A stretch of 64,000 bases of DNA from the NCBI RefSeq assembly GCF_003124125.1, contig NZ_QCXQ01000002.1:464426-528425 (forward strand), given 5' to 3'. Made by a program: the position numbers and the translations under genes. The stretch comes from Levilactobacillus bambusae. GTDB lineage: Bacteria; Bacillota; Bacilli; Lactobacillales; Lactobacillaceae. This document shows, one piece after another, positions 12,923-64,000 of the stretch; within the stretch, counting starts at the first letter, position 1, and every line of letters starts with the position of its first letter. The notes under the pieces were generated by a model. It was not told where the DNA came from. It did not search any database and was given only the letters and a program-made list of their open reading frames with translations.

Positions 12923-12957
12923 AAAAAAGCCTCCAATTGTGCACGACAAAAGGAGGC
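12923..12957 (-). terminator. Riboswitch expression platform: terminator that also holds the thiW ribosome binding site
   Basis: On the minus strand GCCTCC (12952-12957) pairs with GGAGGC (12929-12934), followed by six T that run into the thiW ATG. When the hairpin forms it would stop transcription and also mask GGAGG. Confidence 0.75.
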
Positions 12958-13029
12958 TCACTTTCCTACGCCGGAATTATCCGGATCAGGTTCGAGGGTA
13001 CTTCTCAGCCAAATGGCGCCCCTAGTGTC
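12958..13029 (-). promoter_or_regulatory. TPP (THI-box) riboswitch
   Basis: On the minus strand the sequence has the conserved blocks CTGAGAAGTACCC, ACCTGATCCGGATAAT and CCGGCGTAGGAAAG, preceded by GGGGCGCC. These are the pyrimidine and pyrophosphate sensor helices of the thiamine pyrophosphate aptamer. It lies 36 bases before thiW. Confidence 0.95.
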
Positions 13030-13153
13030 ATACGCTTATTTTTTTAACCCCCTTAGCTTATCAGACAATCAGCCGTTGCGCAATCGATTGTCGGTTGCGT
13101 TTCCCCGCAAATCCCGTTAAGCTGGACTTACTCATCACTTAGGAGGTTATACC

Positions 13154-43826: not shown

Positions 43827-43896
43827 CATCATCATGAGTAGACGGCACAAAAAAACGTGCCAAAGAAGCGACTGGTAGAACCCACCAGTCAACTTC

Positions 43897-44024
43897 ATTT
43901 CTTCTCCCATCCAGACTTTCACTGTCGGTTGCAGAATTTCACTGCATCCACCGCATAATGCGGGTCACGGACTGTCGCGTTAACGAATCACCGTCGGTCG
44001 GGAGTTTCACCCTGCCCCGAAGAA
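43897..44024 (-). promoter_or_regulatory. FMN riboswitch (RFN element)
   Basis: On the minus strand the aptamer begins CTTCGGGGCAGGGTG and contains CCGACCGACGGTGA, GCGACAGTCCGTGAC, GGTGGATGCAGTGAAA and the closing AGTCTGGATGGGAGAAG. These are the conserved FMN-binding blocks. It controls the operon by the downstream attenuator. Confidence 0.97.
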
Positions 44025-44046
44025 ATGGTTATATTCAACTACTTTT

Positions 44047-61332: not shown

Positions 61333-61378
61333 GTTTCTTACGTTACTCCTCAAGATCTACCAAGCGGTTCCACACCCT
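61333..61378. repeat. Half of a family B unit at a stop codon
   Basis: Only the right half is present (GTTTCTTACGTTACTCCTC to TTCCACACCCT). It directly abuts the stop codon of the alarmone synthetase gene read on the minus strand. Confidence 0.65.
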
Positions 61379-62076
61379 TAATCTGGTTCCGTCTCATTCC
61401 GAATCGTTTCTTTGATGGCATTCATTTCGGTGTCTAATTGACTGACTAAGCCCGCCTTAGCCGTTAACGACCGGCGTAGTTGACCTTGATGGGGGACGTT
61501 CTTCTTATAATTGAGTTCATGTTCTAAGGAGGCCCAGAAGTTCATGGCGATCGTTCGAATTTGAATTTCGACCTCGACTTGCTCCTTGCCGGCAGACAGG
61601 TAAATGGGGACCGTGACAATCAAGTGTAGGCTCCGGTACCCGTTGGCCTTAGGGTGGCGAACGTAATCCTTTACCCGCACGATTTCCATATCATCCTGCT
61701 TGTCTAAGAAGGCCTTAACCTTCCAAATATCATCCAAAAACCGGACGATTAACCGCACCCCTGCAATATCATGAAGGTTGGTCGTTAAACTCTCAAAGGT
61801 GCGGGGAATACCCTTTCGTTCCGCCTTTTCTAGGATACTTCGGGGCTGTTTGATCCTTGACTGAAAACTATCAATGAGGGAATCGCCGTATAAAATTTTA
61901 TTCTCATCGTTTAAATACCGAACCTTATTTTGAACGGTTCGCGTCGCACTTTCGTACATCAGCATAATATTCTGAAACGTTTTTGCGTGTTCGGGGACGT
62001 TGATTAGTTCATCTAAGTTATGGGCTGCCAGCCACTGCTTGGTTGGCAGGGGAAACTCGTGGTCGCTGTTACTCAA
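61378..62076 (-). CDS. Small alarmone synthetase (RelP/RelQ type)
   Basis: The 232-residue protein consists of one RelA/SpoT synthetase domain (about 65-195) without hydrolase or regulatory domains. It has SFQSRIKQPRSILEKAERKG, DIAGVRLIVRFLDDIW, NGYRSLHLIVTVPIYL and VEIQIRTIAMNFWASLEHELNYK, holding the GTP-binding Tyr and catalytic Glu. It makes (p)ppGpp from GTP/GDP and ATP. The start is a TTG with AGGAGGGG upstream. Whether it is RelP or RelQ was not decided. Confidence 0.93.
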   Translation of the reverse strand: MSNSDHEFPLPTKQWLAAHNLDELINVPEHAKTFQNIMLMYESATRTVQNKVRYLNDENKILYGDSLIDSFQSRIKQPRSILEKAERKGIPRTFESLTTNLHDIAGVRLIVRFLDDIWKVKAFLDKQDDMEIVRVKDYVRHPKANGYRSLHLIVTVPIYLSAGKEQVEVEIQIRTIAMNFWASLEHELNYKKNVPHQGQLRRSLTAKAGLVSQLDTEMNAIKETIRNETEPD

Positions 62077-62168: not shown

Positions 62169-62222
62169 AAAATGAGAAAATTAACATTTACCCTTGTTAA
62201 TTCTCATTTTTATTGCTACACT
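62169..62222 (+). promoter_or_regulatory. Promoter of the POT leader with overlapping inverted repeat
   Basis: TTGTTA (62194-62199) and TACACT (62217-62222) are 17 bases apart. A hairpin or operator dyad with arms AAAATGAG-AATTAAC (62169-62185) and GTTAATTCTCATTTT (62196-62210) covers the -35, in the space between the alarmone synthetase and the POT gene. Confidence 0.6.
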
Positions 62223-62252
62223 ACAGTTATTCAATTTAAGGAGTGGTTTCTT

Positions 62253-62309
62253 ATGATTTCCATTAACCAACAACCACAATTGAATCTTTATTTTTGGTTT
62301 AGCTTTTAG
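62253..62309 (+). CDS. Aromatic-rich leader peptide of the POT transporter gene
   Basis: ATG at 62253 has GGAG 9 bases upstream. The 18-residue product is MISINQQPQLNLYFWFSF, whose last seven residues before the stop are L-Y-F-W-F-S-F: five aromatic codons (TAT, TTT, TGG, TTT, TTT) in six. This resembles pheA/trp-type leader peptides that slow ribosomes when charged aromatic tRNA is low. The stop (62307-62309) is 2 bases before the first arm of the alternative hairpins. The peptide was probably missed by gene callers because of its length. Confidence 0.7.
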   Translation: MISINQQPQLNLYFWFSF

Positions 62310-62311
62310 AA

Positions 62312-62504
62312 GACGTTCGGACCTGTCAAAGATGCGAACGTCGTGAACGCAACGTTCGTATCTATTAAGCTGACCATCTTTATGCTGTCGCCTAGTAGAT
62401 CGTTTATCAAATCTATTAGGCATGAAGCTTTCAGCTGATTAAAAAAGACCTTTACTTTATGCCGCTAGATTTGACCGTTGTGTCGAATTCTAACGGCTTT
62501 TTTA
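62312..62504 (+). promoter_or_regulatory. Attenuator leader of the POT transporter: competing hairpins and terminator
   Basis: Arm 1 (GACGTTCG, 62312-62319) pairs with arm 2 (CGAACGTC, 62335-62342); arm 2 pairs better with arm 3 (62331-62341 with 62352-62362, 11 pairs including a G-U). Further on, CCTAGTAGAT (62391-62400) pairs with ATCTATTAGG (62411-62420). The same right arm can instead pair with ATGCC-GC-TAGAT (62459-62470). The last arm is also the left side of a terminator (62461-62472 with 62486-62497, T6 following). Thus terminator and antiterminator exclude each other. Confidence 0.75.
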
Positions 62505-62530
62505 TTTTATCAACTGGAGGTTTCAAGCAT

Positions 62531-64000
62531 ATGGAAGAACAAGCAAACGAGTCAGATATTAAAACCCAGCCTAAACCGGCCCGGACCTTTTTCGGTCAGC
62601 CCGTGGCTTTAAAGACCCTGTTTATGACCGAATTTTGGGAACGATTCAGTTACTATGGCATGCGGGCAATTCTGTTGTACTACATGTACGACGCCACCGT
62701 TCGGGGCGGCCTAGGAATGTCCGTCCAGTTAGCGACATCCATTATGGCCATCTACGGTGCCCTCGTTTTCATGACGAGTGTCATTGGCGGATTTATCAGT
62801 GATCGTTTAATCGGGAGCGCACGATCTGTCCTATACGGAGGCCTACTCATCATGTTCGGCCACATCCTATTGTCAATGCCCTTCAAGATTGCCGGCCTAT
62901 ATGGATCGATTTTACTCATCACCTTAGGAACCGGGCTTTTAAAGCCCAACGTTTCCGAAACCGTTGGTGCCCTGTACGCGCCAGACGATCCCCGGCGTGA
63001 TTCAGCTTACAGCATTTTCGTCATGGGAATTAACCTGGGATCATTAATGGCGCCCCTACTCGTGTCCTGGGTCGGTCAGAGCTATAACTATCACGCCGGG
63101 TTCTCATTAGCCGCCTTAGGAATGGCGTTGGGACTCGTTGGCTACATTCGCAAGATGAAGTCACTGCCAGCGGCATCCCAGGTGGCGCCCGACCCCCTGC
63201 CAAAGGCCTTGCGCCAGCGTTACTTAAAACGAACTGGTTGGGGACTGGTTGGTCTAGGACTTGTCTTAGGCGGATTCGCTCTAACCCATCACCTCACCGC
63301 AAACGGGATCGTTCTCGGCCTAACCATCCTTGGCGTTTGCTTGCCCATTTACTACTTCATCGTTATGCTAACAAGCCCAAAGGTTTCCGCCGTTGAACGG
63401 CGGCACCTTAAGGCGTACATCCCGTTATTTATCTGTGAAGTCCTTTTCTGCCTCATTTTAGAGCAGGGCGGCGTTGTCCTAGCGCTGTTTGCCCAGGATC
63501 AAACTCAACTGCAAGTCGGCAGCTGGCACTTACAGGCGGGCCAATTTCAATCCCTGAACCCCCTCTTTATCATTCTCTACTCCCCCATTTTTGCGTGGTT
63601 ATGGACCAAACTGGGGACCAAACAGCCAACTGCCGCCACCAAGTTTGCTTGGAGCCTTATCTTTAGCGGGCTTTCCTTCTTAATCATGGCCATTCCCGTT
63701 CTAATGGTCGGGACCGCCCGGGTTAGTCCCCTGTGGTTAGTCGCAAGCTGGGCCATTCTCGAAATTGGCGAACTGCTTCTCTCGCCAATTGGCCTCTCCG
63801 TGACGTCAACGTTGGCCCCGACCGCCTACAAATCACAGATGATGAGTATGTGGTTTTTGGGCAACGCTGCCGCCCAGGCTTTAAATTCACAAATCGTTCG
63901 ATTCTACACCCCGCAAAACGAGGTGGCTTACTTCACCATAATCGGTGGAATTACCATTGTAGCAGCCATCATCATGTTTGCACTCGTACCCGCCATTAAC
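62531..64000 (+). CDS. dtpT: POT-family di-/tripeptide:H+ symporter (C-terminus cut off)
   Basis: The 490 codons present have the POT motif MTEFWERFSYYGMRAILLYYM (ExxERFxYYG) at about 32-52, GGFISDRLIG and the helix 5 FVMGINLGSL pattern. Members import di- and tripeptides with protons. The reading is open at the window end; usual length is about 495 residues, so little is missing. GGAGG lies 10 bases before the ATG. A long attenuator with an aromatic leader peptide precedes it, suggesting that peptide uptake responds to aromatic amino acid supply. Confidence 0.93.
   Translation, partial: MEEQANESDIKTQPKPARTFFGQPVALKTLFMTEFWERFSYYGMRAILLYYMYDATVRGGLGMSVQLATSIMAIYGALVFMTSVIGGFISDRLIGSARSVLYGGLLIMFGHILLSMPFKIAGLYGSILLITLGTGLLKPNVSETVGALYAPDDPRRDSAYSIFVMGINLGSLMAPLLVSWVGQSYNYHAGFSLAALGMALGLVGYIRKMKSLPAASQVAPDPLPKALRQRYLKRTGWGLVGLGLVLGGFALTHHLTANGIVLGLTILGVCLPIYYFIVMLTSPKVSAVERRHLKAYIPLFICEVLFCLILEQGGVVLALFAQDQTQLQVGSWHLQAGQFQSLNPLFIILYSPIFAWLWTKLGTKQPTAATKFAWSLIFSGLSFLIMAIPVLMVGTARVSPLWLVASWAILEIGELLLSPIGLSVTSTLAPTAYKSQMMSMWFLGNAAAQALNSQIVRFYTPQNEVAYFTIIGGITIVAAIIMFALVPAIN

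Follow-up and report, generated by a model that had tools for sequence, protein, structure and literature searches.

A probable ribosome-mediated transcription attenuator with an aromatic leader peptide before a POT-family peptide transporter gene in Levilactobacillus bambusae

The region upstream of a peptide transporter gene in the window, by which we mean the whole 64,000-nucleotide stretch of Levilactobacillus bambusae DNA that was analysed, is very likely an attenuator of the aromatic-amino-acid type, in which a translating ribosome governs transcription, situated here in front of the gene of a peptide importer. Comparison of related loci shows a leader ORF and a chain of seven coevolving helices that exclude one another, and from these features we infer a response to starvation. 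We further consider it probable that the locus is one member of an unrecognised, order-wide Lactobacillales regulon of aromatic leader-peptide attenuators, built on a single seven-helix RNA, that takes in biosynthesis operons, an ABC importer with a likely preference for Phe, a permease for amino acids and a peptide importer, that has in "Enterococcus sRNA 2410" a mislabelled branch, and in which the sensed amino acids are retuned gene by gene via the peptide.

The features of the locus are given in Table 1. A preliminary description of this DNA had reported an 18-residue aromatic ORF with its own ribosome binding site in front of a POT gene, and both parts are borne out: the ORF follows a Shine-Dalgarno sequence, its codons -6 to -3 relative to the stop encode Tyr-Phe-Trp-Phe, and profile searches identify the downstream gene as a POT transporter (TIGR00924, 402 bits; PF00854, 236 bits). 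The inverted repeat AAAATGAGAA...TTCTCATTTT, which lies 5' of the leader, is possibly an operator or transcription factor site, and a similar repeat also occurs in Lentilactobacillus laojiaonis, one of two POT-linked relatives. An operator shared by the family 5' of the leaders was considered; one motif form is present in just 6 of 44 cluster representatives, too few to establish it as a family trait. A small GTP diphosphokinase-like gene (61378-62076, minus strand; NF053588 below its cut-off) is divergent from the leader, and the window also contains an FMN riboswitch (43895-44028) and a TPP riboswitch (12946-13033), both on the minus strand and above the Rfam gathering threshold.

Table 1. 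Coordinates of features at the leader and transporter locus (window numbering)
Feature	Position	Strand	Remarks
Inverted repeat	62169..62210	.	5' of leader, within or near promoter; read from sequence; candidate operator
Shine-Dalgarno of leader ORF	62238..62244	+	AAGGAGT; sequence
Leader ORF	62253..62309	+	ATG 62253, stop TAG 62307-62309, 18 codons, predicted peptide MISINQQPQLNLYFWFSF*
Arm A	62295..62309	+	3' end of leader ORF; pairs with 3' part of D if ribosome-free; fold
Arm B	62312..62323	+	directly 3' of stop codon; pairs with C
Arm C	62329..62341	+	alternative partners B or D; coevolution, compensatory changes
Possible antiterminator closing helix, 5' strand	62349..62354	+	GCAACG; partner CGTTGT 62476-62481
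Arm D	62350..62372	+	alternative partners A, C or El (left arm of hairpin E)
Hairpin E	62390..62421	+	El about 62390-62400, Er about 62407-62421
Intrinsic terminator	62461..62504	+	Gl 62461-62474, Gr 62489-62497, U tract 62498-62504
Possible antiterminator closing helix, 3' strand	62476..62481	+	CGTTGT; partner GCAACG 62349-62354
POT-family oligopeptide:H+ symporter gene	62531..64000	+	extends beyond window end

The leader region has a minimum free energy of -88 kcal/mol, compared with -62.1 +/- 4.6 kcal/mol in dinucleotide shuffles (z -5.69, 0/100 as good), and positions 62310-62506 folded alone give z -4.94, with none of 200 shuffles as good. The terminator stem pairs the left arm GCCGCTAGA with the right arm TCTAACGGC, followed by TTTTTTA, and is not among the terminators listed by a consensus scan of the window. 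The preliminary description had an antiterminator that uses the left arm of the intrinsic terminator, and this arrangement stands, as does the existence of the antiterminator itself; its arms, given there as 62411-62423 and 62459-62470, were misplaced by a few bases, the main helix being formed by TCAAATCTA (62407-62415) and TAGATTTGA (62466-62474) with an extra pairing of GGC (62419-62421) with GCC (62461-62463). By folding and by coevolution, antiterminator and terminator are mutually exclusive. The possible closing helix comprises 6 pairs, which are 100% standard in all three POT-linked members, the ones compared, and include one compensatory pair. Absent from the preliminary description were arms A to D, the upstream part of the switch, through which the position of the ribosome is linked to the terminator. 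It had seen no T-box motif, in agreement with the Rfam covariance search, which gives none at gathering or at E <= 10, and no other Rfam family matches the leader region at gathering. Weak Rfam matches at the leader to STnc150, Ref84, DdR8 and TeloSII_ncR33 (E 1 to 8) were judged to be chance.

We propose a mechanism in which the leader ribosome selects between two alternative chains of helices. When Tyr-, Phe- and Trp-tRNA are charged, the ribosome would reach the stop codon and, sitting there, would cover arm B, such that C pairs with D, hairpin E (El:Er) forms and the terminator (Gl:Gr) ends transcription. A ribosome waiting at the Tyr-Phe-Trp-Phe codons would instead cover A and leave B free, in which case B:C, D:El and Er:Gl would pair, the terminator would be blocked and the POT gene would be transcribed. 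With no ribosome on the leader, A would pair with D, the terminator would form and the POT gene would be off. The purpose would be the uptake of aromatic-containing peptides by a cell in which neither chorismate synthase nor tryptophan synthase beta was found. Specifically, at E <= 0.001 neither aroC (chorismate synthase) nor trpB (tryptophan synthase beta) has a match in the genome that contains the window (1.97 Mb, 39 contigs, 99.7% complete), whereas each of them had matches in all 14 control genomes. Judging from its gene content, the host is most probably unable to synthesise aromatic amino acids, and uptake in an auxotroph therefore fits.

The evidence for the helices comes from the way in which their arms have changed together. 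In a swap test over 45 clusters, eight arms were defined per sequence and each of the 28 possible pairs was evaluated with its own partner and with partners from other clusters. All seven pairings of the model (A:D, B:C, C:D, D:El, El:Er, Er:Gl, and Gl:Gr) were stronger with their own partners. Together with El:Gr, they gained on average 2.3 to 7.4 kcal/mol at p values, inflated by kinship among the sequences, of about 1e-5 or less (A:D 1.1e-6, B:C 1.9e-8, D:El 3.2e-9, C:D and Gl:Gr both 5.7e-14). The coevolution of El with Gr is a by-product, because El resembles Gl, and the other 20 pairs differed by 0.7 kcal/mol or less, with p 0.02 for A:Er among them. Compensatory changes were found on 18 of the 21 pairs of C:D and hairpin E, in a large alignment fitted to that structure, and 0 of 500 shuffles scored as high. 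The covariation of the arms that the preliminary description had asked to see is hence present, in all seven pairings.

The family was delineated from the POT-linked loci outwards. The best 80 of 572 candidate loci with related transporters were taken, the upstream 450 bases (or up to the contig limit) were read for 28, and three conserved leader motifs, scanned over 111 loci, were present in L. laojiaonis (L001), Lapidilactobacillus dextrinicus (L051) and the window copy (L081) only. A covariance model of these three (R1), run over 397 Lactobacillaceae genomes, returned the three known members and one weak match, L115 (E 0.003), which has the arm order of the window, the leader MTCCLLKKVYYFDFAYFK*, and a downstream aro operon in which an MFS-chorismate mutase fusion is joined by aroC, aroA, tyrA and the genes of a 175-aa protein and a shikimate kinase relative; the kinase and the mutase domain score under NCBIfam cut-offs. 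L115 was kept despite its near-chance score because its leader, arms and operon fit, and the model of four sequences then built with it (R2, L115 being picked by eye) found many loci outside the seed, with matches in 175 of the 397 genomes and 25 of 40 genera at E <= 0.05, and E as low as 8e-16 for sequences outside the model. Other weak R1 matches were dismissed on by-eye reading, L138 as antisense to a T-box-like stretch and L139 and L140 as resembling coding sequence. In the window's genome, R2 has a strong match at the window copy only, and the four genus mates of the window organism that were examined have family members before an MFS gene (L171, L178) or a TrpX-like SBP gene (L211, L219).

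After 60 further places had been retrieved, 92 R2 matches from 90 sources, representing 91 distinct places (L228 and L229 share one), were examined, and the leader ORF is conserved across them, as the preliminary description had proposed to check. A script found the ORF in 91 of the 92, the window included, and 90 of the 92 have at least three aromatic residues among the last 10, the exceptions being L051, with a frameshift, and L001. Among the 44 cluster representatives that have a leader, the share of aromatic residues is 55% in the last ten positions and 4.5% elsewhere. Over the last nine codons, 240/396 are aromatic in frame (0.606) versus 27/396 (0.068) and 60/396 (0.152) in the other two frames, with a shuffle expectation of 0.234, and this enrichment in the reading frame indicates that the signal is in the peptide and not in the RNA alone. 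The residues near the stop include F at -2 in 40 of 44 representatives, and Phe, Tyr and Trp interchange at several positions.

Many of these leaders precede genes of the aromatic pathway. Naming the first downstream gene by BLAST to reference proteins gave 52 MFS genes, 11 TrpX-like SBPs, 10 chorismate mutases, 6 copies of a protein of about 176 aa, 3 POT, 3 aroE, one each of aroA, aroK and an amino-acid permease, and 4 unassigned cases among the 92 matches. Where more than 4 kb of sequence was available, 20 of 29 MFS loci also carry aroC, aroA, tyrA, aroK or aroE, and the other 9 of 29 have no shikimate-pathway gene within the stretch examined. The MFS first gene is in some loci apparently without a mutase part, and the stretch L141:6579-12651 (G043) contains an operon of the make-up listed above for L115, with the MFS-chorismate mutase fusion. 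When eight example proteins were checked against protein families, the aroE and aroA examples were above a family cut-off, the shikimate kinase and the BcaP-like permease were below theirs, the chorismate mutase was recognised by Pfam only, and two TrpX-like SBPs scored 297 and 339 bits, below the TrpX cut-off of 390. The permease (L231:2509-3888) follows the leader MNNWHTMQNFFNFAYFM* and is another transporter under a family leader.

It should be noted that the residues of the leader peptide track the downstream gene. Tyr is present in the last ten leader residues at 65 of 65 loci before MFS, chorismate mutase or aroE and at 1 of 17 before a TrpX-like SBP or the ~176-aa protein, a count that omits ten matches (3 POT, aroA, aroK, the permease and 4 with no assigned gene); by cluster, the figures are 27/27 and 1/9 (Fisher p 3e-7). 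The leaders before the TrpX-like SBPs (L179, L185, L191, L194, L201, L203, L206, L211, L219, L232, and L237) contain Phe but hardly any Tyr or Trp, and this richness in Phe suggests that the TrpX-like ABC binding protein is part of a phenylalanine importer. The six leaders before the ~176-aa protein likewise have Phe and no Tyr. One copy of this protein (L167:1352-1879) has no match in Pfam or NCBIfam within the limits applied and none in the PDB, and the 175-aa copy at L141:9212-9739 has none in NCBIfam; the protein resembles a prephenate dehydratase relative and is possibly an unrecognised Phe-branch enzyme.

These patterns bear on whether the ribosome is stalled by its codons or by its peptide. 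In TnaC and the macrolide leaders, the nascent peptide stalls the ribosome on a free aromatic amino acid or an antibiotic, and an arrest peptide of this type, sensing a drug or a free aromatic amino acid, would be expected to operate the same RNA switch by identical RNA logic; the nearly fixed residues by the stop, with F at -2, could reflect such a peptide signal. We nevertheless regard an arrest peptide as very unlikely. The identified downstream genes are the aromatic pathway, its MFS companion and amino-acid or peptide transporters rather than resistance genes, the composition of the leader follows the downstream gene (Phe versus Tyr plus Phe) as fits codon-specific starvation, and the three aromatic residues replace one another in a way unlike a fixed arrest motif. 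The drug-stalled ribosome that the preliminary description offered as an alternative trigger thus gains nothing from the family pattern, given the aro-gene context and the peptide that tracks the gene, while its main proposal, that stalling at aromatic codons promotes peptide uptake in an auxotroph, is strengthened by the ORF, the covariation, the aro-gene context and the lack of aroC and trpB matches.

Whether codon-specific stalling would throw the switch was simulated by folding 44 sequences (41 at the stop) at equilibrium with a ribosome masking the RNA at each codon. In transcripts extending to El, a ribosome-free leader has D paired mostly with the A side; an A site anywhere in codons -9 to -3 shifts D mostly to El, and from -2 to the stop its pairing with C exceeds that with El. 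In the window, El is favoured at -7 to -2, a range that contains the Tyr-Phe-Trp-Phe codons, and at the stop codon C is ahead of El by a narrow margin (11.2 versus 9.3 base pairs). The codons at which the ribosome would stall in the window thus lie, in this model, where the antiterminator path is chosen. How well aromatic codons coincide with the permissive range depends on the footprint assumed, the AUC being 0.70, 0.61 and 0.54 for footprints of 10, 13 and 16 nt. In transcripts to Er, the average favours El:Er wherever the ribosome stands. In transcripts to Gl, the predicted antiterminator in the window reaches 0.96 at the Trp codon and 0.25 at the stop, as the model requires, and, against the model, 0.98 without a ribosome, and the means over the 44 sequences are 0.75 at codon -4, 0.56 at the stop and 0.38 without a ribosome, a modest contrast. 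Equilibrium folding hence backs the choice of partner by D and partly backs the later steps of the switch, and since it is not fully cooperative, the switch as we propose it would have to work by kinetic trapping.

The POT-linked subset is thin, with two relatives in the searched genomes, one of them decayed. The transporters of L. laojiaonis, L. dextrinicus and the window form one clade in a 33-row tree with support of 100/100, L. dextrinicus being on a long branch and represented by a protein fragment only. The ordinary transporter copy of the window's genome (L082) lies outside this clade and groups with its genus, and from this separation the leader and the transporter seem to travel together. 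None of 113 plasmid records compared carries a POT protein at 60% identity or more. A transporter of the L. dextrinicus type is present in 1 of 8 genomes of that genus, and in L. dextrinicus itself the leader is out of frame through a frameshift and the POT gene is broken, so that we consider it a decayed copy. The leader of L. laojiaonis has one Trp and one Tyr among its last ten residues, and the full aromatic run is found within the subset in the window peptide alone. These features, with three POT copies known, one leader poor in aromatics and another broken, would fit a POT copy that kept the cis switch, lost its amino-acid specificity and reports a general slow-down of translation. We judge this unlikely, as the Tyr-Phe-Trp-Phe codons of the window sit inside the permissive range in the simulated ribosome folding, and both intact POT leaders, those of the window and L. 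laojiaonis, have a Trp codon four before the stop. The preferred reading for the POT gene is accordingly still a switch governed by aromatic codons.

Part of the family already has an entry in Rfam. RF02863 (sRNA_2410) overlaps R2 matches at eight SBP-type loci, at L237 above gathering (83.7 versus 61 bits); it has no match at gathering at 18 family loci tested and none in the window at gathering or E <= 10. At E <= 1e-3 it matches 107 of 198 Lactobacillales genomes (48 above the cut-off) and 0 of 14 controls. In a class-wide draw, 13 of 250 genomes match at E <= 1e-6, and three of these are outside Lactobacillales (G876, G885, G895; E 2e-8 to 1.5e-7). Of nine RF02863 loci viewed, eight have leaders, for example MITNRITPTQLNNFFFSYFR*, that of L240 being missed by the ribosome-site rule, and the next gene by eye is a TrpX-like SBP at seven and aroE at two. 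The order of arms, by eye, is that of the window family, from which RF02863 differs in being filed as an sRNA gene. From its name we take the E. faecium sRNA_2410 to be the founder of RF02863. The terminated leader could be a trans-acting small RNA, a role implied by the label "Enterococcus sRNA 2410" that Rfam gives to a relative, and the E. faecium RNA, of 195 nt, gave two transcripts by Northern blot (PMC5593968); the main text of that paper contains neither "leader" nor "attenuat" (PMC5593968). A trans-acting role is in our view extremely unlikely for the window family: the conserved ORF, the position before a gene, the terminator and the coevolving terminator and antiterminator arms are traits of cis leaders, and a terminated cis leader would show up as such an RNA anyway.

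If the proposal of a cis-acting attenuator family is correct, common food and gut bacteria control their aromatic supply via the translating ribosome, where T-boxes are usually assumed, and one reusable RNA device serves this control in Lactobacillales. The Rfam "sRNA" would become a cis-acting leader, and a multi-step attenuator would be accessible to simple reporter tests. Transporter substrates could also be predicted directly from the peptide, which names the amino acids sensed, for instance from nearly Phe-only leaders for the TrpX-like importer and from Tyr, Phe and Trp for the POT transporter.

The class of mechanism is known. In the trpL, pheL and hisL attenuators of Enterobacteria, a short ORF containing codons of the amino acid under control precedes mutually exclusive hairpins and a terminator, and termination occurs if the leader is untranslated. 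The window leader is like them in its ORF with aromatic codons, its exclusive hairpins and its intrinsic terminator, and it differs in having a longer chain of helices (A:D, B:C, C:D, D:El, El:Er, Er:Gl, Gl:Gr, in place of 1:2, 2:3, 3:4), in being found in Lactobacillales, and in its placement here before a peptide importer and not a biosynthesis operon. What is new is apparently the helix chain, the order-wide spread, the gene-by-gene retuning of the peptide and the placement before a peptide importer, and the titles and abstract openings returned by searches of open PMC yielded no description of the family as an attenuator. The Leu/phe leader of Lactococcus lactis (RF01743), listed as cis-regulatory (Weinberg 2010, PMC2864571), is likewise a leader found in a lactic acid bacterium; taking the searched Rfam library to include RF01743, neither the window nor the related loci tested gave a match to it. 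By their descriptions, the branched-chain leader-peptide attenuators of Staphylococcus aureus (PMC5794164) and Listeria (PMC5864092) and the his leaders in bacilli (PMC2965389) are also cases of leader-peptide attenuation in Firmicutes, but for other amino acids. In other Firmicutes, the same regulatory task at aromatic genes is done by T-boxes (PMC2494555), and unlike a T-box, which binds the tRNA directly, the window leader would sense its amino acids via the translating ribosome.
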